64,000 nucleotides of DNA from Thermoprotei archaeon. GTDB lineage: Archaea; Thermoproteota; Thermoprotei; Thermoproteales; B15-G16. Shown here one piece after another: positions 22,498 through 51,720 of this stretch. The stretch is taken from NCBI GenBank assembly GCA_003649205.1, contig QMRC01000007.1, positions 21,937 to 85,936 on the forward strand, written 5' to 3'. The position numbers and the translations under genes are program-made. Below the pieces are notes generated by a model. It saw nothing but the letters and a program-made list of their open reading frames with translations, did no database searches and was not told where the DNA came from. Position 1 is the first letter of the stretch. The number at the start of each line of letters is the position of its first letter.

Positions 22498-23937
22498 GTG
22501 ATTTCAGACTTTAATCCAATGAACTTGGTAAGAAGCTTAGGGTATGTAATGAGCACTGACCTCTTCTTCGATCTCTTCGTCAAGGAGGTTGAGGAGAAGC
22601 TCACTAATGGGAATTCAGGTACTGAATTCACTATGAAGCCGAAGATACCTACCATTCTCTTCAACGAGATCAAGAAGCTATGGGTAAGCGAACTCCCCAA
22701 GAGAACAACTAACTGCTCCATAGTAGCTGTTGATGGTGGTATAAGGTCACTAGGTCTAGAAGGTGGTAGAGAGGTAGTTATAACGAGGGCTATAGCAGTA
22801 ACTAGTTCAGGTGCTAGAGCAAGACAATTAAGAGTTGAGTTAAGTAAGCTACAGGGTTTTGCTCTAAAGCTCTCACTACTTACGCAGGTAGAGTGCTCTG
22901 TTGCTCTTGAAGCTCTAGAGAAGGTACCTAATGTGGATTACTTACTTCTCGATGGTTCACTATACTATAGAGTAGTCCATGCACTTCACAGAATTCTTAG
23001 ACCTAGGGAGATAGCAGATACTTACTACCTACCTGAGCTAATCATGACCGTGACCTACGTAGCTACCTTACTCAAGCGATGTCGCGAGCTCAACGTAGTG
23101 CCGCTATTCATAACGAAGGACTCATCATCACGAATGTTGAAGGACTACGTAATCAGCAACATAATCTACGAGCAGCTGTACGAGAACAAGCTCCTTACAG
23201 ACCTAGAGGACATCACCACGGAACTACTTTTAAAAGCACGAAACCTGTACTCAGTTACCTGGGTAAAACACTACAGAGCAAATCTCGAAAAACTTCAACA
23301 ACACCTAAGAGCGGCACCTACGAATGTAGCGGAAGAACTTATACACTGTATTGAGCTATGGCTTCAACCGCACATCACAGACGTAGACTTAATTCGCTCA
23401 ACAGTAACCACTATAGGTTTCTCAAGACCGCTCAACATAGGTCTCATAGATATCCACTTAGATAACTTACTACAGGTACTTGAGAGGAGTAAGAAGAGAG
23501 TACTTGACAGGATCAGTGATGCACTCAAGATGAGAATCAATGAGGTACTAGGTAATGAGAGTTACTGGTACACCCTACTGATGAATGCTCTCAAGACAAT
23601 ACCAACTCTCTACATGACGTACATACGTGTGACACCAGACGATACACCACTAGCAATTGAGATACCTAACTTCAGATCCAGTATGGGATTCGTAGAGTTC
23701 CGAAGTAGGAGATTAAGTAGTGAACTCGAGATACTAGATCCACTTAGTATAGTTGTCAGTGGTTACAGGAATTCAACAGTCTACAATGTATGGCTCTACT
23801 TAGCACATCAGTACGCAACCTTCAGATCAACTCAGTTCAGAAGCTACGTAAAGTACCTCGAAGCACATCTCTCAAAGTATGGTCTTATCCTTCGAAAGAA
23901 GAGAAGAGAGAAGATGGTGGTGGCTCCTCTTGAGTGA
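22498..23937 (+). CDS. nurA: NurA 5'-3' nuclease
   Basis: VAVDGGIRSLGLEGGREVVITRAIAV motif; YLLLDGSLYY; immediately upstream of herA. Confidence 0.82.
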   Translation: MISDFNPMNLVRSLGYVMSTDLFFDLFVKEVEEKLTNGNSGTEFTMKPKIPTILFNEIKKLWVSELPKRTTNCSIVAVDGGIRSLGLEGGREVVITRAIAVTSSGARARQLRVELSKLQGFALKLSLLTQVECSVALEALEKVPNVDYLLLDGSLYYRVVHALHRILRPREIADTYYLPELIMTVTYVATLLKRCRELNVVPLFITKDSSSRMLKDYVISNIIYEQLYENKLLTDLEDITTELLLKARNLYSVTWVKHYRANLEKLQQHLRAAPTNVAEELIHCIELWLQPHITDVDLIRSTVTTIGFSRPLNIGLIDIHLDNLLQVLERSKKRVLDRISDALKMRINEVLGNESYWYTLLMNALKTIPTLYMTYIRVTPDDTPLAIEIPNFRSSMGFVEFRSRRLSSELEILDPLSIVVSGYRNSTVYNVWLYLAHQYATFRSTQFRSYVKYLEAHLSKYGLILRKKRREKMVVAPLE

Positions 23938-25963
23938 GGAGGTTGGTTATGTAGTTGGTGAGGTCACTCCCCTAGAATTTACCTTCGCTGTAAACCCCAA
24001 GACACCAGTACCTCTCTACGAGTATGTGTACTGTGAGCTAGAGGATGTACCACCTGGTGAGACCAAGCTCCATAGAGTAAAGGTCATAGCACAGGTACAT
24101 GAGGTGTATCGTGTTGGTGTTGGTCTTGGCAAGAATGTACCCTATGATGTGGCTAAGAACTTAGCAGCTAGCGGTGTTGAGGTTGAGGAGATTCACCTAG
24201 CTAAGGCTAGGGTACTTGGGTATGTGTGGAGAGGTAGATTGGTAACTCCGAGGAGACCACCGAGAGCGAATACTAAGGTCTTTAGAGCACCAACTGAGCT
24301 AGTTAAGGAGCTTTACAGCGTTCCAGAGGATAGAGCACTTCACATAGGGTACCTTGTTGCTAGACCTGAAGTACCTGTCTACCTAGATGTTGAGGGCTTG
24401 AAGAGGCACTTAGCGATAATAGCAGCTACAGGTAGTGGGAAGACTTGGTGCGCAGTGTTATTGATTGAAGAGCTGTTGAAGAAGGGTGCCACGATAGTTG
24501 TCATAGATCCTCATGGTGAGTACGTTAAGTTGAAGGAGAAGGTTCACGTCCTAGATCCCAGACTTAGGGATAGAGTTCTTGTACTTAAAGCTTCACGAAC
24601 GCAGGAAGGTGATAAGCTCTATAGAATAAAGCTCCTTCAACTAGATTCAGAAACTCTCTCAAGTATAGCGGGTATACCACAGAATGCTCACAAGATAAGA
24701 CACTGTGTGAGAGCAGCATTCAACATAGTTAAGGCAATTGCTAAGTACGTGAATAGGCCTGAGCTAGTTAACATAGGTAACTTGTTGAAGGTGCTTAGTT
24801 TCTGGAGGAGAGAACGAAATGTATCAAAGTCGAGGAAGTCAGGTAACCTATCTCCTGAACCTATAGTTAGGAAGATGCTTCAGGAATTATTTAATCTAGG
24901 TAATTCAGATAGTGAGTTAGTTAGGAAGCTCAGTAAGTACATTGAGGATCTGTACGCAGCAACGTACCGTGATGTATCACCTTGTCTTGATGCTATCAGG
25001 TACCTAAGGTCACTTAAGAGGTATGGGGTCTACACCTCAACAACTACACCACTACACGAAATTCTTCAACCAGCTCACGTAACGATACTGAACCTCAGTG
25101 GTGTTAAGGAGGAAATACAGGACCACATCGTCTACAATGTCCTAACCAGGATATTCAATGCTAGAGTCAGGTACGTCAGAGACCTACCTGGTGAAAGGTA
25201 TGAGTACCCTGTTGTCGTCTTCATTGAGGAAGCACATAGATTCGCACCACCTAAACACCGTAGTAGAAGAACTTGGAGTCAAGAGATAATCACGAGGATT
25301 GCTTCTGAAGGTAGGAAGTTCGGTGTCTACTTAGTGGTCATAACTCAGAGACCATCGAAGATAGACTCAGATGTGCTGTCTCAATGTCAGAATCAGATCG
25401 TCCTCAAGATAGTTAATCCGAAAGATCAAGAAGCTATTAAGGATGCTAGTGAAGTGCTCTCACAGGACTTACTCATGAACTTACCTAGCCTCAACACCGG
25501 TGAAGCTATTGTTGTTGGTCCATTAACTAAAGCACCCGTAATAGTCAGGTTGAGGGATCGTATATTACCCTACGGTGGTTCAGATATCGTGGTTAGTGAG
25601 GTATGGAGTAGAGCATTGACCTCAGTACTTCCAGATACCTCAAGTGAAGTACATGTACTTAGGAAGCTAGGTATCAACGTTGATCAAGGTACATTGAGGA
25701 AGGTAATGCCCTACCTACCGTATGTCACGTACGAGATTGATCCACTAACATTGACTATCCTCGGTAAGGTAAGTCTTGGACGTGAAGCGTATGTCGAGTA
25801 TAGACTCGGTGAAGGTACATGGTACTGTTCAGCATGTAGACATAGCATTCAACCATGTGTACACGTACTAGCACTCCTGCTAAAAGTTATAGCTTCTAAG
25901 GATATAAAATTACTTGAGAGAGAAGTGGTGCAGAACAATGGTAACGATAGCACACCTAGCTGA
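23879..25963 (+). CDS. herA: HerA bipolar DNA helicase/translocase; true start probably inside the ORF, overlapping the nurA 3' end
   Basis: IIAATGSGKTWCAVLLIEELL, VVVFIEEAHRFAPP, GRKFGVYLVVITQRPSKIDSDVLSQCQNQIVLKI. Confidence 0.92.
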   Translation: MVLSFERREERRWWWLLLSEEVGYVVGEVTPLEFTFAVNPKTPVPLYEYVYCELEDVPPGETKLHRVKVIAQVHEVYRVGVGLGKNVPYDVAKNLAASGVEVEEIHLAKARVLGYVWRGRLVTPRRPPRANTKVFRAPTELVKELYSVPEDRALHIGYLVARPEVPVYLDVEGLKRHLAIIAATGSGKTWCAVLLIEELLKKGATIVVIDPHGEYVKLKEKVHVLDPRLRDRVLVLKASRTQEGDKLYRIKLLQLDSETLSSIAGIPQNAHKIRHCVRAAFNIVKAIAKYVNRPELVNIGNLLKVLSFWRRERNVSKSRKSGNLSPEPIVRKMLQELFNLGNSDSELVRKLSKYIEDLYAATYRDVSPCLDAIRYLRSLKRYGVYTSTTTPLHEILQPAHVTILNLSGVKEEIQDHIVYNVLTRIFNARVRYVRDLPGERYEYPVVVFIEEAHRFAPPKHRSRRTWSQEIITRIASEGRKFGVYLVVITQRPSKIDSDVLSQCQNQIVLKIVNPKDQEAIKDASEVLSQDLLMNLPSLNTGEAIVVGPLTKAPVIVRLRDRILPYGGSDIVVSEVWSRALTSVLPDTSSEVHVLRKLGINVDQGTLRKVMPYLPYVTYEIDPLTLTILGKVSLGREAYVEYRLGEGTWYCSACRHSIQPCVHVLALLLKVIASKDIKLLEREVVQNNGNDSTPS

Positions 25964-27266
25964 TGCGCATCTAGGCTTTAGACAGTATGGGCTACCTGAA
26001 AGAGCTAGTGACTTCGCTAAATCATTCCACAGGGCAGTCGATGAGATAGTGGAGAGGAGAGCTGACATAGACCTAGTACTGATAGTTGGTGATCTATTCC
26101 ACAGCAAGAGACCTAGTCCAGAGACAATTCGTGAAGCTGTTATTGGTCTTAAGAAGCTCAGAGAAGCGAATATACCGGTCATAGTGACAAGAGGCAATCA
26201 CGACGCGCCATACTCGCAAGGCAGCAACAATGTGTTGACTCTCCTCTCTGAGCTAGGTTTAGTCAAGTACATAGATTATGGAAGAGTAGAGATTAGTGGG
26301 ATCGAAATCATAGCATGTGGTTGTACACCAACAGCGTATACAAGAGCACTAGAGAACTACTTGAGACAAGTAGTTAGCTTAGAGAAGGGACAACGTATCC
26401 TCCTACTTCACCAGGTTATTGAGGGTATAGAGCAAAATTACCCAAATGACCCGTATGTAGTACCATTAGATGTAGTTAAGGAATTTGCTACGAAATTCAA
26501 CTACATAGCTCTAGGTCATGTACATACCTTCGCACTGAAGCACCCTCAATTACCTGCATACTACTCCGGATCACTAGATATCTGGGATATCTCTGAATTC
26601 GAGACATACATCATGAAGTCTAGCAAGACCTTAGTTAAGGAACGTGACATGAGTGAGAAGGGTTTCCTCATAGTTCATGTAGATGGTGGAATTGAGGTAG
26701 AGAGAGTAAGACTTAGACCTAGTAGGAGGATGATTAGAGCAGTTCTCGCTTACAGTAATGAGGTGAAGCCTAGTGAAGTAATGAGGGATCTTATATCGGT
26801 AGCTCACGAGCTAGATAGGGAAGATGCTGTTGTTGTGATCGAGTTGCTAGGTAATCTAGTACCTGGTTCGAGTAGGCATGAGCTAAATTTGAAGGAGGTG
26901 AGGAAGTACTTTAGAAGAGTTCTCAAACTCGATATCAGGAATAGGCTGGGTGTAGTTACGTCGACTACAGATGGTAAAGTAGTAGACATATCGTCACTGA
27001 GTTTAGAGTCGCTTCTCAGGAGTTCATTCCTGAAATACTTCAGCAACGTAGCTAAGTCAATTGCTCTAGATCCTCAGTTCCTAAGTGAGTTAGCTATGAA
27101 ATTGCTCGATCTCCTAGCTCAAGGTAAGACTAGAGAAGCCCTCTACGTATTGTATAGAGAGTTGGGTGTTGATACAGGTACTGTATCGATTCCGAGTATC
27201 AGTACCTCTACTTCAGCTCCCTCTAGAAGGGGTAGGGAATCCACGATATTAGATTGGTTGAGGTGA
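25938..27266 (+). CDS. mre11: Mre11 nuclease; start placed at MVTIAHLAD
   Basis: HLADAHLGFRQYG, LVLIVGDLFHSKRPSPETI, VTRGNHDAP, ALGHVH. Confidence 0.93.
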   Translation: MVTIAHLADAHLGFRQYGLPERASDFAKSFHRAVDEIVERRADIDLVLIVGDLFHSKRPSPETIREAVIGLKKLREANIPVIVTRGNHDAPYSQGSNNVLTLLSELGLVKYIDYGRVEISGIEIIACGCTPTAYTRALENYLRQVVSLEKGQRILLLHQVIEGIEQNYPNDPYVVPLDVVKEFATKFNYIALGHVHTFALKHPQLPAYYSGSLDIWDISEFETYIMKSSKTLVKERDMSEKGFLIVHVDGGIEVERVRLRPSRRMIRAVLAYSNEVKPSEVMRDLISVAHELDREDAVVVIELLGNLVPGSSRHELNLKEVRKYFRRVLKLDIRNRLGVVTSTTDGKVVDISSLSLESLLRSSFLKYFSNVAKSIALDPQFLSELAMKLLDLLAQGKTREALYVLYRELGVDTGTVSIPSISTSTSAPSRRGRESTILDWLR

Positions 27267-27276
27267 GGGACTTACC

Positions 27277-29697
27277 TTGATCATTAGGTTAGAGGTAGAG
27301 AACTGGAGGTCCTACATAAGGGCCAGTGCTACGTTTACTGAAGGAATAACGTTTGTACATGGTGTTAATGGTGCTGGTAAGACATCTCTCCTAGAAGCTA
27401 TAGCATATGCTCTCTACGGTTCTAGGTGGTTAAGGTTAGCGAGGAGGGAAGGTGAGGAGAGGTTAAGTGATCTCCAGAGGAGGGGTTCCAGTATTACTAA
27501 GGTTAGGTTGTGGTTTAGAGCACCTAGTGGTGAGGTGTATGTTGTTCAGAGGTGTATCGTGGGTGGTAGATCTCAACGAGATAGTACGTACCTAATGGAT
27601 TCTAGAGGTAGGAGATTAGCTATTGGTGATGAGGAGGTTACTGAAGCTATTGAGAGGATAACTGGTATATCCTGTAGGGCGTTTAGGGAACTCCTCTACG
27701 TTAGGCAGGGTGAGCTGAAGGATATTCTAAAGGAGAGACGGAGAGAGAAGCTGGATGAGCTACTTAGGATCAAGGATCTGGAGAAGGCTAAGGACTCTAT
27801 GAGGGATGTTATCTCGAAGCTAGATACAGCACTTAGGTTAACGATCCAGGAACTAAGTCAGGTAGAGCACCTCATTCGTGAGTACGAGAATAGGGTTCTA
27901 GATATCTCTAAGAAGATGGATGGGTTAGTTAAGTTGATTGAGGAGTATAGGACTAGAGTTAGTTCCATTGAGAGTAGACTTGAGGAGATGAAGAAACGTG
28001 AGGAGGAGTTGAGGAGTTATCGTGAGAGGATTCAGAATCTAAGACTCGAGGTAGCTAACTTAAGGACTGTTAGGGAGAGGTACATTTCTGAGATAAGGGT
28101 TCTAGAGGGTGAGCTTCAACGGGTTAAGGAGTTAAGGGATGAAGTTGAGAGGTTAGCTCGAGAATTGCAGAGAGCATCTGAACTTGAGCAGAGATTACGT
28201 AGCTTGAGAGAACAGGAGAAGCAATTGCTCAATCTCCTCGGTGAGTACACGTACCTACTCAACCAAGTTAAGGAGTATGAAAAGCTGCTTAGTGAGGTCA
28301 ATAGGCTTAGAGATGAGTATGAGAAGTGCAGTCAGGAGCTTAGATTGCTAGAGAGTGAGAGGAGTAAGCTACTTCAACAACTCTCATTAATTAGGAAGTT
28401 TGAGGAGGAGTATAGTGAACTACTTAAGCGTAGAGCTCAGCTAGAGCAGGAACTGAGTATTCTACGTAATTTTGTAGATAATTTGGAGGGATCTAGGGTA
28501 GCTACGTGCCCTCTCTGTGAAAGAGAGATTAGTAGTGAGTACAGGGAATTGATTCTAAAGAGAAAGAGGAAGAGAATTGAGGAGTTGAAGAATACTCTAA
28601 CTGACTTATCTAAGCGTATTCAGGAGATTGAGCAGTCACTTAAGCAACGAGATGAGCTTCTCTCTAGACTACTGAATGTCGAGCAGTGTATAGCTAGTGC
28701 TCGATCTAGGTTGCAGGAACTGGAGAGTAAGCTACGTGAGCTAAGTGATCTACAGAAGCAGGTACAGAGTATGTATGAGAAGATTAAGACTCTTGAGGGT
28801 AAGTTAAGTGAGTTAGAGAGAATTCGAGATGACATAACTCAGCTAGAGCGTGAAGCTGGTAGAGTACAGGAACTGAGAGAGAGATTGAGTTCTTTAATGC
28901 AGGAGCTATCTAGGGAGCGTGTACTCGAGCAGAAAATAGCGGAGCTAAGGGAGAGGGTAAGTGAGGTTACGGAACTAATTGAGTGTAAAGAACGTGAGGT
29001 TAAGTCTCTACTCACTAAATTCAATGAGGAGGAGTACACTAACTTACAGAGTAGTATTCAGCATCTTGAGGAGGAGCTTGTGAGGTCTAAATCAGAGCTA
29101 AGTAGGCTAGAGGGTGAACTAAAGTCCTACCATGAACAACTATCCGAAGCCAAGAGGAAGTTAAGTGAACTCGAGAAGAGACGAGAAGAGTTAATCAGGA
29201 AGAGGCAGAACCTCGAGCGGGTACTCGCAGTAGCCTCTCTGATAAGGAGGTCGTACGACGAGATCAAGCCAATGCTTAGGTCATTGGTCATCGAAGCAAT
29301 AAACATGGAAGCAGAGAACCTGTTCAATCAACTTAAACACAAGAAAAACTATGAGAGTATCGAGATATCACCTGATTACGAGGTGTATATACGTGATAGA
29401 TCAGGTGCTAAGTACCTTATCGACTACTGTTCTGAAGGTGAGAAGACACTCATAGCACTGGTCCTCAGATATGCACTAGCAAAGGTACTCATAGGTGAAA
29501 CACCCATATTAATTCTTGACGAACCAACAGAACACCTAGATAGAGAGCATAGAGCAAGACTCATCAGGTGGTTAAGCACCTGTGAGTGGGCTAGACAACT
29601 AATAGTGACATCTCACATAGATGAGTTCAGTCAAGTAGCAAACAACGTAGTGGAGGTAAGAGTAAGAGAAGACGGCGTATCAGAGGTAATTCAGTGA
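27277..29697 (+). CDS. rad50: Rad50 ATPase
   Basis: VHGVNGAGKTSLLEAIAYALYG, long coiled coil, zinc hook CPLCE, YCSEGEKTLIALVLRYALAKV, ILILDEPTEHLD. Confidence 0.95.
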   Translation: MIIRLEVENWRSYIRASATFTEGITFVHGVNGAGKTSLLEAIAYALYGSRWLRLARREGEERLSDLQRRGSSITKVRLWFRAPSGEVYVVQRCIVGGRSQRDSTYLMDSRGRRLAIGDEEVTEAIERITGISCRAFRELLYVRQGELKDILKERRREKLDELLRIKDLEKAKDSMRDVISKLDTALRLTIQELSQVEHLIREYENRVLDISKKMDGLVKLIEEYRTRVSSIESRLEEMKKREEELRSYRERIQNLRLEVANLRTVRERYISEIRVLEGELQRVKELRDEVERLARELQRASELEQRLRSLREQEKQLLNLLGEYTYLLNQVKEYEKLLSEVNRLRDEYEKCSQELRLLESERSKLLQQLSLIRKFEEEYSELLKRRAQLEQELSILRNFVDNLEGSRVATCPLCEREISSEYRELILKRKRKRIEELKNTLTDLSKRIQEIEQSLKQRDELLSRLLNVEQCIASARSRLQELESKLRELSDLQKQVQSMYEKIKTLEGKLSELERIRDDITQLEREAGRVQELRERLSSLMQELSRERVLEQKIAELRERVSEVTELIECKEREVKSLLTKFNEEEYTNLQSSIQHLEEELVRSKSELSRLEGELKSYHEQLSEAKRKLSELEKRREELIRKRQNLERVLAVASLIRRSYDEIKPMLRSLVIEAINMEAENLFNQLKHKKNYESIEISPDYEVYIRDRSGAKYLIDYCSEGEKTLIALVLRYALAKVLIGETPILILDEPTEHLDREHRARLIRWLSTCEWARQLIVTSHIDEFSQVANNVVEVRVREDGVSEVIQ

Positions 29698-29799
29698 TAC
29701 GTGCAATAACAATACAATAAAGTGCAATTCTGCACATTGAAAGAGCAACAACTCAACAGGTTAAGTACCTCTACTCCAACTCCTTCTCCGGGAACACTC

Positions 29800-30519
29800 A
29801 TGGGTAAGGTAGTGGTTATTAAGGAGAAGAGCGAGAGCATACCATCGATATTCTTGAAGTCAGTAGTGGGTGTAGTCTGCTTCGTACTATTACTCACGAT
29901 ATCACCAGTGCTAGCAATGCTATCTCTCGGCTCAGCCGCTACCTTCATAGCTTTGAAAAAGATAGTAGGTAGAAAGAGGAAAAGAGAAGATACAGTACCT
30001 GAAGACGAAGATACAGAAGCGCTGAAACTCAACACAAAGAGGAGTAGGGCATTTCACTCAGTAATCAGGCTGAAGCCAGTGAACTTAAGTAAGCTACATA
30101 GACTAGACATGAAGGTGACACTCCTCGTACTTGATCCCAAAGCAAACTACATACTGGTACCTAGAGGACTAGAGTTAACCTGTATAGCACTCATGAAAGT
30201 ACAGACACAGCAACCGCTTGACAGGGATACTATAGCGAAGATCTGCCTCAGTACAGATTGTGAAGTCGAGCCCTCCGAAGTAGTAACACTAGATCACGTA
30301 GGTAATAGCAAGATACCGCTCACACACTACGTACTGGTAGTTAGGTCTAGGAAGGTAACACCAGTAGTGACATCAAACACCGTAGCTGAGTTAATTAGCA
30401 GAGTTAGTCTCGCAATCTCAACACTAACCTCAACAATCATGAGTAGAGACCCCCAAGCAGTGATCGAAGTTCTACCAGCTAGTAGAGTTATTGAGGAACA
30501 GCTACTGATGAGGTGGTGA
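29800..30519 (+). CDS. Uncharacterised membrane-anchored protein in the nurA-herA-mre11-rad50 operon; start placed at MGKVVVIKE
   Basis: TM segment IFLKSVVGVVCFVLLLTISPVLAMLSLGSAATFIAL, basic loop KKIVGRKRKRE, soluble C-terminal domain. Confidence 0.75.
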   Translation: MGKVVVIKEKSESIPSIFLKSVVGVVCFVLLLTISPVLAMLSLGSAATFIALKKIVGRKRKREDTVPEDEDTEALKLNTKRSRAFHSVIRLKPVNLSKLHRLDMKVTLLVLDPKANYILVPRGLELTCIALMKVQTQQPLDRDTIAKICLSTDCEVEPSEVVTLDHVGNSKIPLTHYVLVVRSRKVTPVVTSNTVAELISRVSLAISTLTSTIMSRDPQAVIEVLPASRVIEEQLLMRW

Positions 30520-30520
30520 C

Positions 30521-31849
30521 ATGAGGATCACCATAGGTTACGAAATTCAGGGTAACGTAGCAGTACGTGAAGCAATGCTAGATCTTAGAGGTGGAGACGT
30601 AATCGGTATCTTCGGTAAGTGTGGTAGTACTACAGTCAAGCAGTTAATCACATCACTTAGTGATCTGTCAGAGGAAATAACCTCCACAGTGATTCTAGAT
30701 AGTGAAGGTACTCTCCGAAACCTCAAAGCACTAAACGAGTACAGGTACACAGTTCTTGGATGGAATGCATCACTACCTCTAATAGAAGTAATTCCCCCAG
30801 GAAAAGACCTCTCATCTAGACTCCTCATGGTAACTGACATCATTGCAGCAGCACTGAATCTCAGCGATATCGAGGCACACATACTTCACAACGCACTCAT
30901 GAAGTACCTAACAAGCAGTAGTCACGAGCTAGATAACCTAATGAAAGCTCTCTCGGAAGAGTACATGAAGTTAAGTCCTGTAGAGAGAACGAGAGCATAC
31001 AACATACTCTCACTAATGAGGGACCTAAAGTACGGTAGACTAGGAGCTACTTTCTCTGAACTACACCACACAGTAAATTTAGAAGAGAGTATGCTCTACG
31101 TAGATACAGCACTAATACCTCCAAGCTACAGACCTCTCATACTATCACTCCTGATGTACTACCTGTATAGTAGAGGTGCTAGGGGTAAGATCATAGTGAT
31201 ACTGAACTTCGGCACTTACCTAAGTGATGTATCGATGAGATCAAAGAGCTTCAGTACCCTACTCACTACGTTACTGATAAACAACGTGACGGTAATACAT
31301 TCAAACTCAATACTAGAGCTCCCTACGTACTTAAGAGAATACATCACATACATAATCCAGCACAGGGTAAACACAAGTACTGAAGCAAGAGCTCTAGCAG
31401 ATTTCTACAAGCTACCTGAAGAAACATTAACGAAGTTGAGAGATCACGAAGCATACCTAGTCGGTAGAGGTCTATGCCTCAAGATTGCGCTATGGCATGA
31501 CATAGTTGAGGAGTTACCTACCTCTAGGTTACCCAGAGAATTACTTACACCCCGTGAACCAGCAGCCCAACCACTGATAAGGGAGGTATTCGGTGATAGA
31601 GCAGAGCTAGTGTACGAGGTACTGAACTACCTAAGGAGAGGTGCAGTTACTAGAGATGAGCTACTCTCCTTCCTAACTGAAGGTATGGGTCTCGATACCA
31701 CATCAGCGGCCAAGCTAATCAATGAGCTATGTGTTCACGGTCTTGTAGAGGACTTCATTGCGAGAGATGGTAGGTACTGGATTAGGCTCTCCATTAGGGG
31801 TCTTGTCTCTGTTGATGAGTATGAGGAGTGGAGAGCAAGAGAGACGTAG
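30521..31849 (+). CDS. Uncharacterised 442 aa protein, possible HerA/VirB4-like ATPase fold lacking a canonical Walker A, with C-terminal winged-helix-like region
   Basis: GGDVIGIFGKCGSTTVKQLITSL in P-loop position; YEVLNYLRRGAVTRDELLSFLTEGMGLDTTSAAKLINELCVHGLVEDFIARDGRYWIRLS. Confidence 0.72.
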   Translation: MRITIGYEIQGNVAVREAMLDLRGGDVIGIFGKCGSTTVKQLITSLSDLSEEITSTVILDSEGTLRNLKALNEYRYTVLGWNASLPLIEVIPPGKDLSSRLLMVTDIIAAALNLSDIEAHILHNALMKYLTSSSHELDNLMKALSEEYMKLSPVERTRAYNILSLMRDLKYGRLGATFSELHHTVNLEESMLYVDTALIPPSYRPLILSLLMYYLYSRGARGKIIVILNFGTYLSDVSMRSKSFSTLLTTLLINNVTVIHSNSILELPTYLREYITYIIQHRVNTSTEARALADFYKLPEETLTKLRDHEAYLVGRGLCLKIALWHDIVEELPTSRLPRELLTPREPAAQPLIREVFGDRAELVYEVLNYLRRGAVTRDELLSFLTEGMGLDTTSAAKLINELCVHGLVEDFIARDGRYWIRLSIRGLVSVDEYEEWRARET

Positions 31850-31863
31850 TGGAGGTGATTTTG

Positions 31864-32283
31864 ATGAATATTAGATGGGACTCTAGTGGACTAGGATTTA
31901 CATGGACTATAGGTATTGTAGGTACAGGTATCCTACGTGGTAGGGTAAGGAGGGTCAGTACTAGGAATGGCGTACGAATAGTGCGGTCAGTGTACCTTGT
32001 ACCAAAGAGGTCGTTAAGAGATGATGCTGGTGAGGAATTACTTACAGAGTGGTATGAACCGCAGGAATTCAGTAAGCTAGTCGACGCAGAACTCAAGTTG
32101 CTCTCCATAGTGCTTGAAGAAAGAAGTAGATCAGGCGACCCTGTTCAGGAGATTAAGCTCGCACTTGCTGACTTGGAGAAGCTCCTCAATCAAGTTGCCC
32201 TCCTTAAAGCTAGATTGGAGAAGTTATTGGAGGTGGTGAGTTATGGGAGGAAGGAGGAGAACTCAAACCACAACTCAAACTAG
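31864..32283 (+). CDS. Small uncharacterised protein with C-terminal coiled coil; start placed at MNIRWDSSG
   Basis: Overlaps the radA start; C-terminal EIKLALADLEKLLNQVALLKARLEKLLEVV. Confidence 0.65.
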   Translation: MNIRWDSSGLGFTWTIGIVGTGILRGRVRRVSTRNGVRIVRSVYLVPKRSLRDDAGEELLTEWYEPQEFSKLVDAELKLLSIVLEERSRSGDPVQEIKLALADLEKLLNQVALLKARLEKLLEVVSYGRKEENSNHNSN

Positions 32284-33286
32284 CTCACAGGTTCAGCAGG
32301 TAAGTGAACAGAGATCTGGAGTACAGGAGCTTAAGGTAGTCAGGATACCAATCGAGGAGTTACCTAACACGACGAGAGCTACCATAGAGAAGTTGAAGAG
32401 TGCAGGTATCTACAGCGTTCAGCATCTCTCAATGTTTACGGTAGATGAGCTAGTTATGTACGATGTGACGCCGGAGACAGCAGCTAGGTTACTGAGAAAA
32501 GCAAGAGCACTACTCAAGAGTGAACCACGAGTATTCTCACTCAAGGAGTTCTCAAACTACAAGAGTTCACTACCTAGAGTGAGGATTCACGTAAATGCTA
32601 TAGACAACATGTTGGGAGGAGGTCTAGAACCTAGAGCTATCTACGAATTTGCTGGTGAATTCGGTGCTGGCAAGACACAGCTTTGTCATCAACTAGCTGT
32701 CACAGTTCAACTAAGCTACGATAGAGGTGGCGTAGCAGGAGCGGCGCTGTACATAGATACTGAAGGTACCTTTACACCCTCTAGAATAAAGTCAATAGCA
32801 GAGAGATTTGGGCTAGATCTCGACTACGTATTCTCAAACATCTACGTAACACAACCGAAGACTGTTGACGATTTACTTGAGTGTATTAGGACAGATGTCG
32901 TTAGGTACGTAGAGGACCACAACGTCAAGCTAATAATAGTTGACTCATTAATAGGTCTCTTCAGAGCTGAGTACCCTGGAAGGGAGAATCTAGCTCTAAG
33001 ACAGCAGAGACTGAACTACGCTCTAGACTGGCTCTCGAGAGTAGCCAAGACCTACAACATCTTCGTAGTGATCACGAATCAGGTAATGGATGTACCAATG
33101 GGATTTGGTTCACAGAAACCAGCTGGTGGAAACATCATGGCACATGGTGCAACACATAGATTCCTACTATACAAAGTCGGTAGGGAATCAGGTCTAAGAG
33201 CAATGGAAGTGCTTGACTCACCAGCACTACCTGAGGGACTTACTGTCAAGTTCAGAATAACTGAAAGAGGGTTAGAGGATGTCTAG
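32243..33286 (+). CDS. radA: RadA/Rad51 recombinase family
   Basis: N-terminal HhH-like domain (TIEKLKSAGIYSVQHLSMFTVDEL), GEFGAGKTQLCHQLAVTVQL, ALYIDTEGTFTPSRI, LIIVDSLIGLFRAEYPGRENLALRQQRLNYAL, ITNQVMDVP...AGGNIMAHGATHRF. Confidence 0.92.
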   Translation: MGGRRRTQTTTQTSSQVQQVSEQRSGVQELKVVRIPIEELPNTTRATIEKLKSAGIYSVQHLSMFTVDELVMYDVTPETAARLLRKARALLKSEPRVFSLKEFSNYKSSLPRVRIHVNAIDNMLGGGLEPRAIYEFAGEFGAGKTQLCHQLAVTVQLSYDRGGVAGAALYIDTEGTFTPSRIKSIAERFGLDLDYVFSNIYVTQPKTVDDLLECIRTDVVRYVEDHNVKLIIVDSLIGLFRAEYPGRENLALRQQRLNYALDWLSRVAKTYNIFVVITNQVMDVPMGFGSQKPAGGNIMAHGATHRFLLYKVGRESGLRAMEVLDSPALPEGLTVKFRITERGLEDV

Positions 33287-33620
33287 AGTAGACATACCAC
33301 CAAAGATACTGCAGAAGTTCAGAGAGATGTTTCCGAATAAGAGTACATCGTGGATAAGGAGGTGCATAGCGAGATTACCAGATGTCGTTGAGGGTAAGGT
33401 AAGAGGTGTCTGGTTTGTTCGTGGTAATGCTAAGCTTGGTGATGCGTATTCACAGTACATAGTGAAGTACATTGCTGGTAAGTACATGTGTAGCTGTATG
33501 GAGAGAGAAAGACCGTACCACAGTAGGAGAAGAAAGGAGCTGTGCACACATGTTGGTGCGGTAATCCTGTATAGGTTACTGAAGGGTGAGACTATATGCG
33601 AGACAGAGGTCTCATCCTGA
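33279..33620 (+). CDS. SWIM zinc-finger domain protein
   Basis: CSC-x(n)-CTH (CSCMERERPYHSRRRKELCTH) matches CxCx(n)CxH. Confidence 0.85.
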   Translation: MSRVDIPPKILQKFREMFPNKSTSWIRRCIARLPDVVEGKVRGVWFVRGNAKLGDAYSQYIVKYIAGKYMCSCMERERPYHSRRRKELCTHVGAVILYRLLKGETICETEVSS

Positions 33621-34087
33621 TCTACGGTAATCCAAAGAGGATACTGAAGAAGCTAGTAACAGCACTACAGAGAGAATCTGCACTACTGTTAACCGATAGC
33701 GAGAACTATGCAGCAGTACCATATGAGGAAAGCGATCTCAAGATAGCTATTGTCGATGTATTAGAGCATGTACCTGAGGTACTGAGTAAGGAAGCTAGAA
33801 AGGTAAACGTAGTGTGCACACCATCAATACTCAGCAAGGTTGTTAGAGAGTTCTACAGCTACGTAAGGAGTTCACCTAGTGGAAGTTACCTAGGAATATA
33901 CTACGTCAAGCTACTTAGAGAGGTTCTCGAAAGAATTCGAGCAATAACGTACTCGAGAAGGTTACTCACAATTGTCGTAGCACCTTCACGAATAAATCCA
34001 GTAACAGGTCAGGAGTACCCTGTACTACATTGGTTAGTTCAGAGGTACTTCGATGAGGTACTTCATGAACAACACGTGATGGTGTGA
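33596..34087 (+). CDS. Uncharacterised protein, possible degenerate RecA-fold (RadA paralogue-like)
   Basis: 163 aa; LILIYGNPKRILKKLVTAL at a P-loop-like position; IAIVDVLEHVPEV; RRLLTIVVAPSRINPVTGQEYPVLHWL reminiscent of the RadA L2-side strand; overlaps the SWIM gene. Confidence 0.6.
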   Translation: MRDRGLILIYGNPKRILKKLVTALQRESALLLTDSENYAAVPYEESDLKIAIVDVLEHVPEVLSKEARKVNVVCTPSILSKVVREFYSYVRSSPSGSYLGIYYVKLLREVLERIRAITYSRRLLTIVVAPSRINPVTGQEYPVLHWLVQRYFDEVLHEQHVMV

Positions 34088-34088
34088 G

Positions 34089-34586
34089 GTGATTGATCTG
34101 TCTAAGGCGGGGAAGAACAACACAGTCGACATATACATATGTCCAATATGTGGTAAGACTTTCAGCAAGGAAAGCAGTTTAGCGCATCACATAACTAGAG
34201 CACATGGAACATACAAGCTAATTGTTGATGCAGGTAAATTCATCACTAGATTAGAGAAGGTTGAGAGAACACTCGCTAGAGTAGAGAGAGCAGTATCTCA
34301 ACTACTTGAGCAAATTAAAACCCTAAATGGTAAGCTTGAGGAAGTCTCAACATCGATATCCGAGCTACAGAAGCAATTACAGGAGGTACCTCAGATAACG
34401 GTCATGGCTCCTAAAGTAACACTTGTAACTCAAGAAGCTAAGGCACTGAAGACCGAATTAGCTACATCAATCAAGAGACTTGACCTACATAGCGCAGACA
34501 CCATAGAGATACCAGACTACATCCTGGACAATCCATGGTTAAAAGTTCTCCAGCAAAAACCAAGAGAAGGCAACTTAAATTCCTAA
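34089..34586 (+). CDS. C2H2 zinc-finger coiled-coil protein (GTG start)
   Basis: YICPICGKTFSKESSLAHHITRAHG followed by a heptad-rich segment. Confidence 0.8.
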   Translation: MIDLSKAGKNNTVDIYICPICGKTFSKESSLAHHITRAHGTYKLIVDAGKFITRLEKVERTLARVERAVSQLLEQIKTLNGKLEEVSTSISELQKQLQEVPQITVMAPKVTLVTQEAKALKTELATSIKRLDLHSADTIEIPDYILDNPWLKVLQQKPREGNLNS

Positions 34587-49799: not shown

Positions 49800-50960
49800 C
49801 TACAAATTGAGACCTATACTCCTCAACACTTCACGTAGCTTAACTACAGGAAACTCTACCTGCGTATAGTCATCTATCTGAACCCCAAGTCTCTCAAGTA
49901 AGTTATCGTACATCTTCTCGAGATTGCAACCATACTTCAAACCCAAGACCTGAAGCACAGACCTAAATACATCATCTCGTAGATGCATTCCAGCACAGTA
50001 AATCTTCATAAGCTCTGAAAAACCGGTAACCACGAGAACTTGCTTAATCATGGACTTAGTAGCTGATTCACCTACATAACCTACATCAATGAAAACATCA
50101 AATGACTTTAGTAAGTCACTAGATAGTTGGTACCTAGCTAGTACAGTATAGATGGTGTTTGGAAACGATGAGACCCATAAGCTAGCTCCGGACAACGTAC
50201 TACTTAAGTCATAAAGCAATCTCAACCCCTTAATACCATGAACTATGAGTACAGTATCACCAGAGAGCGCACGCGATATAGTACTTACAACTTCTCGCAA
50301 TGCTGCATCACTAGAGATGAAGTAGTGCATTACTGAGTAAGAATGGACATTATATAGAGACCCCACTAAATCAAGGATAACAACTCTAGACCTAGCGTTA
50401 AACCTCAACCAGTGCTCAATGACAAACTTCATGACCTCAGTAACCGATTTCTCATCAGGACCAAGTAACAGCAACCTACCTAAACCAAGAACTAGTAACC
50501 TAGCTAGTAACAACCTATCAATAACCCAACCACCCTTCACACCGTACCTAACCAAGATTACCCATACATCACCACTCATAGAGCAAAATAGCAGAACCCT
50601 CCAATCACCACAGTGAAGATACGTAACGGAATCAGCTTGTAAGCTACATCCACTACTAAGGAGCACATCCAAGACATCACGAACTACATCACCTACCGAG
50701 ATAGGGCTCAACTTCCTACCCCTACGACGAAACATAGAGACACGGTAGATACGACCACACCTAACAACATACACACCACCAGGAACAACCCTAATCTCCT
50801 CAACAAGTTCATCACATGTAAATATGGAGAGAAAACCCCAACCCCTCCTCAAGACAGTACAATCCCTCAAATAGGCCTCAGCAACTCCAATACCCTCACC
50901 ACTGTAGAAGTAGCGAACAGTACCGTACTCACACGAAAACTCCTCACAAACAGACACCAC
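49800..50960 (-). CDS. Uncharacterised protein resembling a secretion-type (GspE/CpaF) ATPase without an intact Walker A
   Basis: LLLLGPDEKSVTEVMKFVIEHW at P-loop position; RVVILDLVGSLYNVHS; DTVLIVHGIKGLRLLYDLSSTLSGASLWVSSFPNTIYTVLARY. Confidence 0.5.
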   Translation of the reverse strand: MVSVCEEFSCEYGTVRYFYSGEGIGVAEAYLRDCTVLRRGWGFLSIFTCDELVEEIRVVPGGVYVVRCGRIYRVSMFRRRGRKLSPISVGDVVRDVLDVLLSSGCSLQADSVTYLHCGDWRVLLFCSMSGDVWVILVRYGVKGGWVIDRLLLARLLVLGLGRLLLLGPDEKSVTEVMKFVIEHWLRFNARSRVVILDLVGSLYNVHSYSVMHYFISSDAALREVVSTISRALSGDTVLIVHGIKGLRLLYDLSSTLSGASLWVSSFPNTIYTVLARYQLSSDLLKSFDVFIDVGYVGESATKSMIKQVLVVTGFSELMKIYCAGMHLRDDVFRSVLQVLGLKYGCNLEKMYDNLLERLGVQIDDYTQVEFPVVKLREVLRSIGLNL

Positions 50961-51720
50961 ATACCCCCCTCAAGACACCAGATAAATGTGAAGTAACGAC
51001 ACTAACCAAACACCTTAAACCACACAACGCCTTCCTCAACCTCGAGAGAACAGAATGAACACCAGTCCTAAACCAAAGATCGAGAACTTCGTCATAAGGA
51101 ATGGCGACAGAGCACGAAGAACACATACCTGAAGCCTCAATCATAAACTCAGTAAGATCCCAAAGCAACCACGAAGAAGGTGAAGTAGCGTCAAACTTAT
51201 TCAATACAACAACGAGACCACCACGAAATTCCTCAAAACCACTAAGCAACTGACGAACATCGTCAACACAGCACCTACCACAGTCAACAATCAACAGCAC
51301 TAAATCACACAACCTAACAAATTCAGCGCAGACATCCTCACTAAATCTCGAAGACGTAGATGGGAGATCGCAAACAACAATGAAGGACCGTAGAACCTTC
51401 ATCAAAGACTTAAAGAGATTACTATCCTCAAGTAGGTAGCTAAGACAGTAGGTATTACCAGAGAGCACAGTGATCCTAGAGGTAGCGCCACGCAGTTCGA
51501 TACGTAGCTCCAGGACATGAGGAGAGAAACCTTCACAAAGCTCATCGAGAACACACTCAAGTGATTGAGCTCTAGGACCAGCTAGTACCCTAGAAGCACC
51601 GGATTCACTAAAGTCAAGCAGTGCAACTTTAGTGTACTGACCAAGCACTAGCGTTAGGTACGCAGCTATGAGAGACTTACCAACACCTCTACGTGGACCT
51701 GAATACACAGCGACAATCAA
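50944..51720 (-). CDS. ParA/MinD-like ATPase
   Basis: MIVAVYSGPRRGVGKSLIAAYLTLVLGQYTKVALLDFSESGASRVL deviant Walker A; VVCDLPSTSSRFSEDV; VVVLNKFDATS. Confidence 0.78.
   Translation of the reverse strand: MIVAVYSGPRRGVGKSLIAAYLTLVLGQYTKVALLDFSESGASRVLAGPRAQSLECVLDELCEGFSPHVLELRIELRGATSRITVLSGNTYCLSYLLEDSNLFKSLMKVLRSFIVVCDLPSTSSRFSEDVCAEFVRLCDLVLLIVDCGRCCVDDVRQLLSGFEEFRGGLVVVLNKFDATSPSSWLLWDLTEFMIEASGMCSSCSVAIPYDEVLDLWFRTGVHSVLSRLRKALCGLRCLVSVVTSHLSGVLRGVCGVCL

Follow-up and report, generated by a model that had tools for sequence, protein, structure and literature searches.

Gene content of the locus

The window, meaning the whole stretch of 64,000 nucleotides that was analyzed, contains a run of co-oriented genes in which a RadA paralogue (RadA2) is followed by a SWIM zinc-finger protein (P0001) and a small protein (P0002). 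The operon is ordered as a transmembrane (TM) protein, the HerA/VirB4-like remnant o442, o151, RadA2, the SWIM protein and the small partner. The features at the locus were as follows:

22498-29697 (+): NurA-HerA-Mre11-Rad50 repair operon, upstream and on the same strand (genes named by reading the sequences)
29722-30519 (+): o265, first gene of the operon, encoding a small protein that starts with a TM hairpin (two TM-like segments)
30521-31849 (+): o442, remnant of a HerA/VirB4-like ATPase, its Walker A degenerate and its C-terminal region conserved (profile comparison)
31828-32283 (+): o151, small protein, by eye beta-rich and then a coiled-coil tail (conserved position)
32243-33286 (+): RadA2, RadA paralogue (Pfam Rad51 score, motif alignment)
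33279-33620 (+): P0001, SWIM zinc-finger protein, 113 aa (motif, family alignment, Pfam matches of homologues)
33489-33560 (+): SWIM motif CSC-x15-CTHVGA, residues 71-94 (family alignment)
33596-34087 (+): P0002, small partner, 163 aa, probable walkerless RecA-fold paralogue (slot, partner-profile score)
33620-33652 (+): degenerate P-loop region IYGNPKRILKK, no GK[ST] (sequence reading)
34043-34063 (+): RYFDEVL at the P0002 C-terminus (matches partner-family members)
34089-34586 (+): C2H2 zinc finger and coiled coil, ending in a PDYILDNPWLKVL motif (Pfam zf-C2H2, 1.7e-6)
34512-34550 (+): NPWL C-terminal motif, candidate binding peptide (motif count near RadA-family genes)

The SWIM and P0002 ORFs were both genuine and lie where they were first reported. 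The preliminary description of a CxCx(n)CxH SWIM protein overlapping a 163-aa protein was borne out, with an overlap of 25 nt; at its start, the SWIM ORF also overlaps the RadA2 ORF by 8 nt. ORF calling was mechanical, so starts and overlaps are approximate, and the true start of o265 may lie further downstream.

The genes upstream of RadA2 were characterized by profile and homology searches. The slot upstream of o442-family genes in other genomes holds a gene of ~180-250 aa, mostly with N-terminal TM segments, and BLAST detected no homology between o265 and the genes in this slot. The o442 family profile matched HerA (hhalign 91.6%) and the c4 AAA/HerA-like family (87%), and jackhmmer recovered o442 in all module genomes checked. 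In these genomes, jackhmmer likewise recovered o151 homologues, which lie immediately 5' of RadA2. A PDB search with o151 gave no relevant match, and its assignment to a known ssDNA-binding family was dropped on that ground; an ssDNA-binding or adaptor role is possible.

Conservation of the operon

RadA2, the SWIM gene and the small partner occurred in this order in 13 genomes from eight families (the window's genome, G068, G290, G275, G295, G147, G135, G195, G175, G170, G190, G185 and G180). RadA2 overlapped the SWIM gene in every case, and the SWIM gene either overlapped the partner or lay no more than 24 nt from it, as judged from mechanically called starts. The order in G068 was that of the window: o442, o151, RadA2, SWIM, a 146-aa protein and a C2H2/coiled-coil protein. 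Eleven genomes from the rest of the phylum repeated RadA2, SWIM and small partner with o442 ahead in all of them, and all except G180 (as called) had the o151 gene ahead of RadA2. In G061, o151, RadA2 and SWIM were followed directly by a zinc-finger gene, without a partner. Many of the compared genomes were fragmented assemblies, and the labels Thermofilum-like and Pyrobaculum-like used below were guessed from gene content.

Additional genes accompanied RadA-family genes in some lineages. In Thermofilum-like genomes, RadA2 was preceded by a different walkerless protein, 180-204 aa long and RecA-like in its Walker B and helix region. Members of this walkerless RecA-like family 5' of RadA2 were seen at L142:8037-8633, L139:12612-13178, L147, L149, L146, L145 and L148. 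Contig C17 of G068 carried, in one gene run, a SWIM gene, a nuclease-like gene of 170 aa, an NPWL protein, a partner-slot protein of 191 aa and a RadA paralogue. The NPWL motif was found in nine of 1916 ORFs, and in every case a RadA-family gene was no more than three genes away. These C-terminal motifs, of the form P-x-[FY]-x(2-3)-NPW[LIV]xxL, were located at window positions 34512-34550 and in L136_6, L150_10, L152_12, L137_15, L138_9, L142_11, L148_10 and L205_10. The motif is a candidate binding peptide.

Alternatively, the module could be the recombination arm of a DNA import system, in which the TM protein, the HerA/VirB4-like ATPase, RadA2 and the SWIM protein would process incoming ssDNA at the membrane instead of serving general repair. 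SWIM genes and RadA paralogues adjoin AAA/HerA-like, pilin-like and ParA-like genes in L033, L054, L059, L065 and L077, and o442 is related to these AAA/HerA-like ATPases. Such SWIM/RadA-paralogue loci of relatives resemble in gene content the Ted DNA-import loci of Thermoproteales (PMC9905601). The description of the Ted loci mentions neither RadA nor zinc proteins (PMC9905601). However, the neighbors of the window module are NurA, HerA, Mre11 and Rad50, and a complete set of Ted genes was not identified there. An import role for the window module is regarded as unlikely.

The RadA paralogue

The preliminary description placed the SWIM and P0002 genes directly after radA, which did not hold. 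Canonical RadA is encoded on another contig of the same genome (G000:C2:212266) and scored 324.6 bits to Pfam Rad51, vs 220.3 bits for the window copy. A third, weaker RadA-family copy was found on contig C16. Judged by its sequence, the RadA-family gene in the window is a conserved paralogue and not the canonical recombinase. RadA2 orthologues (~50% identity) were widespread in the class, and a scan of genome contigs with RadA2 gave one match, a Micrarchaeota RadA.

In the window copy of RadA2, Walker A (GEFGAGKT), Walker B (LIIVDSL) and the NQV motif were all intact. The FxxA columns read VFSL, with Phe absent at the aligned column; an F sits one residue further, and an alignment shift is possible. 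Across the alignment, this Phe was kept only in the canonical RadA clade and its nearest relatives. RadA2 thus appears to have lost the FxxA polymerization Phe, and the missing aligned Phe would fit a paralogue that does not polymerize in the usual way.

Like RadB and Sulfolobus Sso2452, RadA2 is an additional member of the RadA family that accompanies canonical RadA, and it differs from them in its fixed operon with a SWIM protein and a small partner; the review of these proteins mentions no SWIM partner (PMC8708640). With its ATPase motifs present and the aligned FxxA Phe missing, RadA2 could cap filaments, and the module might then be an anti-recombinase or filament-remodeling system that limits RadA as Sso2452 does. 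Anti-recombinase activity is known for an archaeal RadA paralogue (PMC8708640), whereas the known eukaryotic complexes of SWIM proteins and RAD51 paralogues are mediators. The present evidence does not separate the sign of the effect, and a limiting role is given a small probability, below that of DNA import.

The SWIM protein family

P0001 carries the zinc motif of Shu2/SWS1 (CxC...Xn...CxHxxA) in the form C71-S-C73-x15-C89-T-H91-V-G-A94. Among the collected homologous ORFs, 75 of 78 contained CxC..CxH, and 62 of these had Ala at the +3 position. The motif is not attributable to chance, because it recurs in those 75 ORFs and because the same gene order with RadA2 is found in other families. 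All 14 SWIM proteins of the modules contained CxC..CxH (exactly x15 in 11), and the CxC/CxH residues were invariant in an alignment of 18 SWIM members. Neither P0001 nor P0002 matched any Pfam or NCBIfam model when searched singly. Nine of the 18 SWIM homologues, P0001 not among them, matched the Pfam SWIM model PF04434 (best E 7e-4). No Shu2 or SWS1 chain was found when the SWIM family profile was searched against the PDB.

SWIM homologues were present in 47 of 61 genomes of relatives at a loose limit (E 10) and in 83 of 401 genomes phylum-wide (E 0.001). Some genomes contained multiple copies, including decayed ones, so that many SWIM genes sit in other contexts. G059 had 22 SWIM matches and G052 had 10, with stop-containing fragments among them, which suggests a mobile or decaying SWIM family in these genomes. 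Searches of viral contigs and of plasmids gave no match, and a viral or plasmid origin of the SWIM gene was rejected accordingly.

Of the 41 SWIM loci flanked by 4 kb or more of sequence, 15 had a RadA-family gene within 4 kb. Chance would give an estimated 1-2%, on the basis of some three RadA-family genes in a 2 Mb genome, although the loci are not independent of one another. The window's own genome has a second SWIM gene at L084 (G000:C16), ~0.8 kb from the third RadA-family gene and with a pilin-like gene adjoining. In other archaea, a 128-aa SWIM protein is encoded directly beside NurA-HerA (L203, G394) and a 77-aa one directly beside Mre11-Rad50 (L202, G088). In Pyrobaculum-like clusters (L054, L059, L060, L062 and L064), a c2 family protein of ~140 aa, PIN/FEN-like by eye, comes right after SWIM.

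The small partner

P0002 begins with MRDRGLILIYGNPKRILKKLV. The P-loop-like and non-canonical N-terminus noted in the preliminary description was confirmed, with GK[ST] absent. Walker A and Walker B are both missing, the corresponding segments reading GNPKRILKK and VNVVCTPS. Three proteins in the partner slot of other genomes matched the RadA-core HMM (L200_8, 1e-7; L196_8, 8e-7; L191_0, 7e-5), and L200_8 keeps an intact Walker A, GEAGAGKTT. A partner profile built from four slot proteins, with P0002 left out, aligned with RadA at 98% probability across 167 columns, i.e., the whole domain, and its PDB matches were dominated by RecA, RadB, RAD51D and RadA. These four slot proteins are RecA-like, with Walker A intact in one and degenerate in the others.

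For the earlier suggestion that the 163-aa protein may be a degenerate RecA-fold partner, the comparisons gave indirect evidence. Compared directly with RadA by profile, P0002 gave no RecA signal (rank 159 of 797). Against the partner profile it was the top scorer outside the RadA-like set, although the match was weak (HMMER E 0.021, ~1,900 ORFs). In hhalign, the C-terminal part of P0002 aligned to the partner profile (P 9e-4), including RYxDEVL; RYFDEVL of P0002 matches RYGDEVL, RYVDES and RYADLAL in partner-family members. Searches of Pfam, NCBIfam, PADLOC and the PDB returned nothing of weight for P0002, and a homologue search across 81 genomes from the class yielded weak matches at most. 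The best of these, in G031, was dropped as a homologue, as it lies on the opposite strand of an 858-aa reading frame. An AlphaFold model predicted for P0002 alone, with no alignment as input, had a pLDDT of 41, too low to be informative. L136_5, the positional counterpart of P0002, did not match the partner profile in sequence, nor did L190_10, L192_10 and others, so that homology of every slot protein is one we infer from position.

Alternatively, P0002 may lack a RecA fold, the slot may hold unrelated small genes in different lineages, and the SWIM protein may act alone as a zinc-binding adaptor of RadA2. P0002 and L136_5 have no significant direct match to RadA, several slot proteins show no detectable likeness to one another, and G061 has no partner at all. 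Against this, slot and orientation were constant across eight families, P0002 ranked first among proteins that are not RadA-like against the partner profile, and P0002 and the profile have the RYxDEVL C-terminus in common. Unrelated slot genes are thus considered improbable, to about the same degree as an import role, and P0002 itself probably has a RecA fold.

A proposed Shu-like mediator of RadA

The eukaryotic Shu complex helps load Rad51. Its yeast form comprises three Rad51 paralogues, Shu1, Psy3 and Csm2, and the zinc-finger protein Shu2 (PMC6957567). Mouse and human SWS1 have the spacing CxC(x15)CxH, and their partner SWSAP1 is a RAD51 paralogue with a canonical Walker A (GKT) in human that the mouse protein has lost (AQT), the motifs not being required (PMC8275761). 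The archaeal module is like Shu in its parts. The SWIM motif CxC(x15)CxHxxA is found in both the archaeal protein and Shu2/SWS1; the partner is a small protein, RecA-like in four archaeal slot members and probably so in P0002, whose Walker A can be lost; and both are associated with the RadA/Rad51 family. The module differs in that its genes share an operon with a HerA/VirB4-like gene and a RadA paralogue. The PDB search gave no link from P0001 to Shu2/SWS1, and the likeness is one of parts and motif.

The original proposal that the two genes may form an archaeal Shu-like module is supported in part: the SWIM protein, a RecA-like partner in several families and a RadA-family neighbor agree with it, and the pair itself proved to be part of a longer operon. 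A RadA mediator composed of the SWIM protein, P0002 and RadA2 and working like Shu (SWS1-SWSAP1) is the favored reading and is held to be moderately probable. The SWIM protein and P0002 would form a small accessory complex, like SWS1-SWSAP1 or Shu2 with Psy3-Csm2. P0002 would have a pared-down RecA fold, freed from the need for ATP binding, and would dock on a RadA-family protomer, while the SWIM protein would clamp or orient P0002 via its Zn(CCCH) site. Together with RadA2, the two might aid the assembly or protection of canonical RadA filaments on ssDNA that NurA-HerA-Mre11-Rad50 produce or that enters by DNA uptake. Both the physical complex of SWIM and P0002 and the positive sign of the mediator function are what we infer here.

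A more tentative idea, thought possible but doubtful, is that a mediator made of a SWIM protein and a small RecA-fold protein predates eukaryotes. The archaeal operon would then be homologous to SWS1-SWSAP1/Shu and would preserve the ancestral arrangement together with intermediate steps of P-loop loss. The open-access literature searched contained no report of a Shu-type mediator of archaeal RadA. A thermostable set of RadA2, SWIM and partner would provide a simple biochemical model of recombinase loading by walkerless paralogues and SWIM proteins, and would offer a direct way to test where the Shu complex came from.

Other features of the window

Mre11 was present as a single copy in the window's genome. 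The HerA ORF (23879-25963) has a zinc-finger-like WYCSACRHSIQPCVHVLA (CxxC..CxH) near its C-terminus (~25780-25900), a SWIM-like variant fused to HerA. Further downstream, the gene at 50944-51720 (-) encodes a ParA/MinD-like ATPase by eye, and an uncharacterized 386-aa gene adjoins it.
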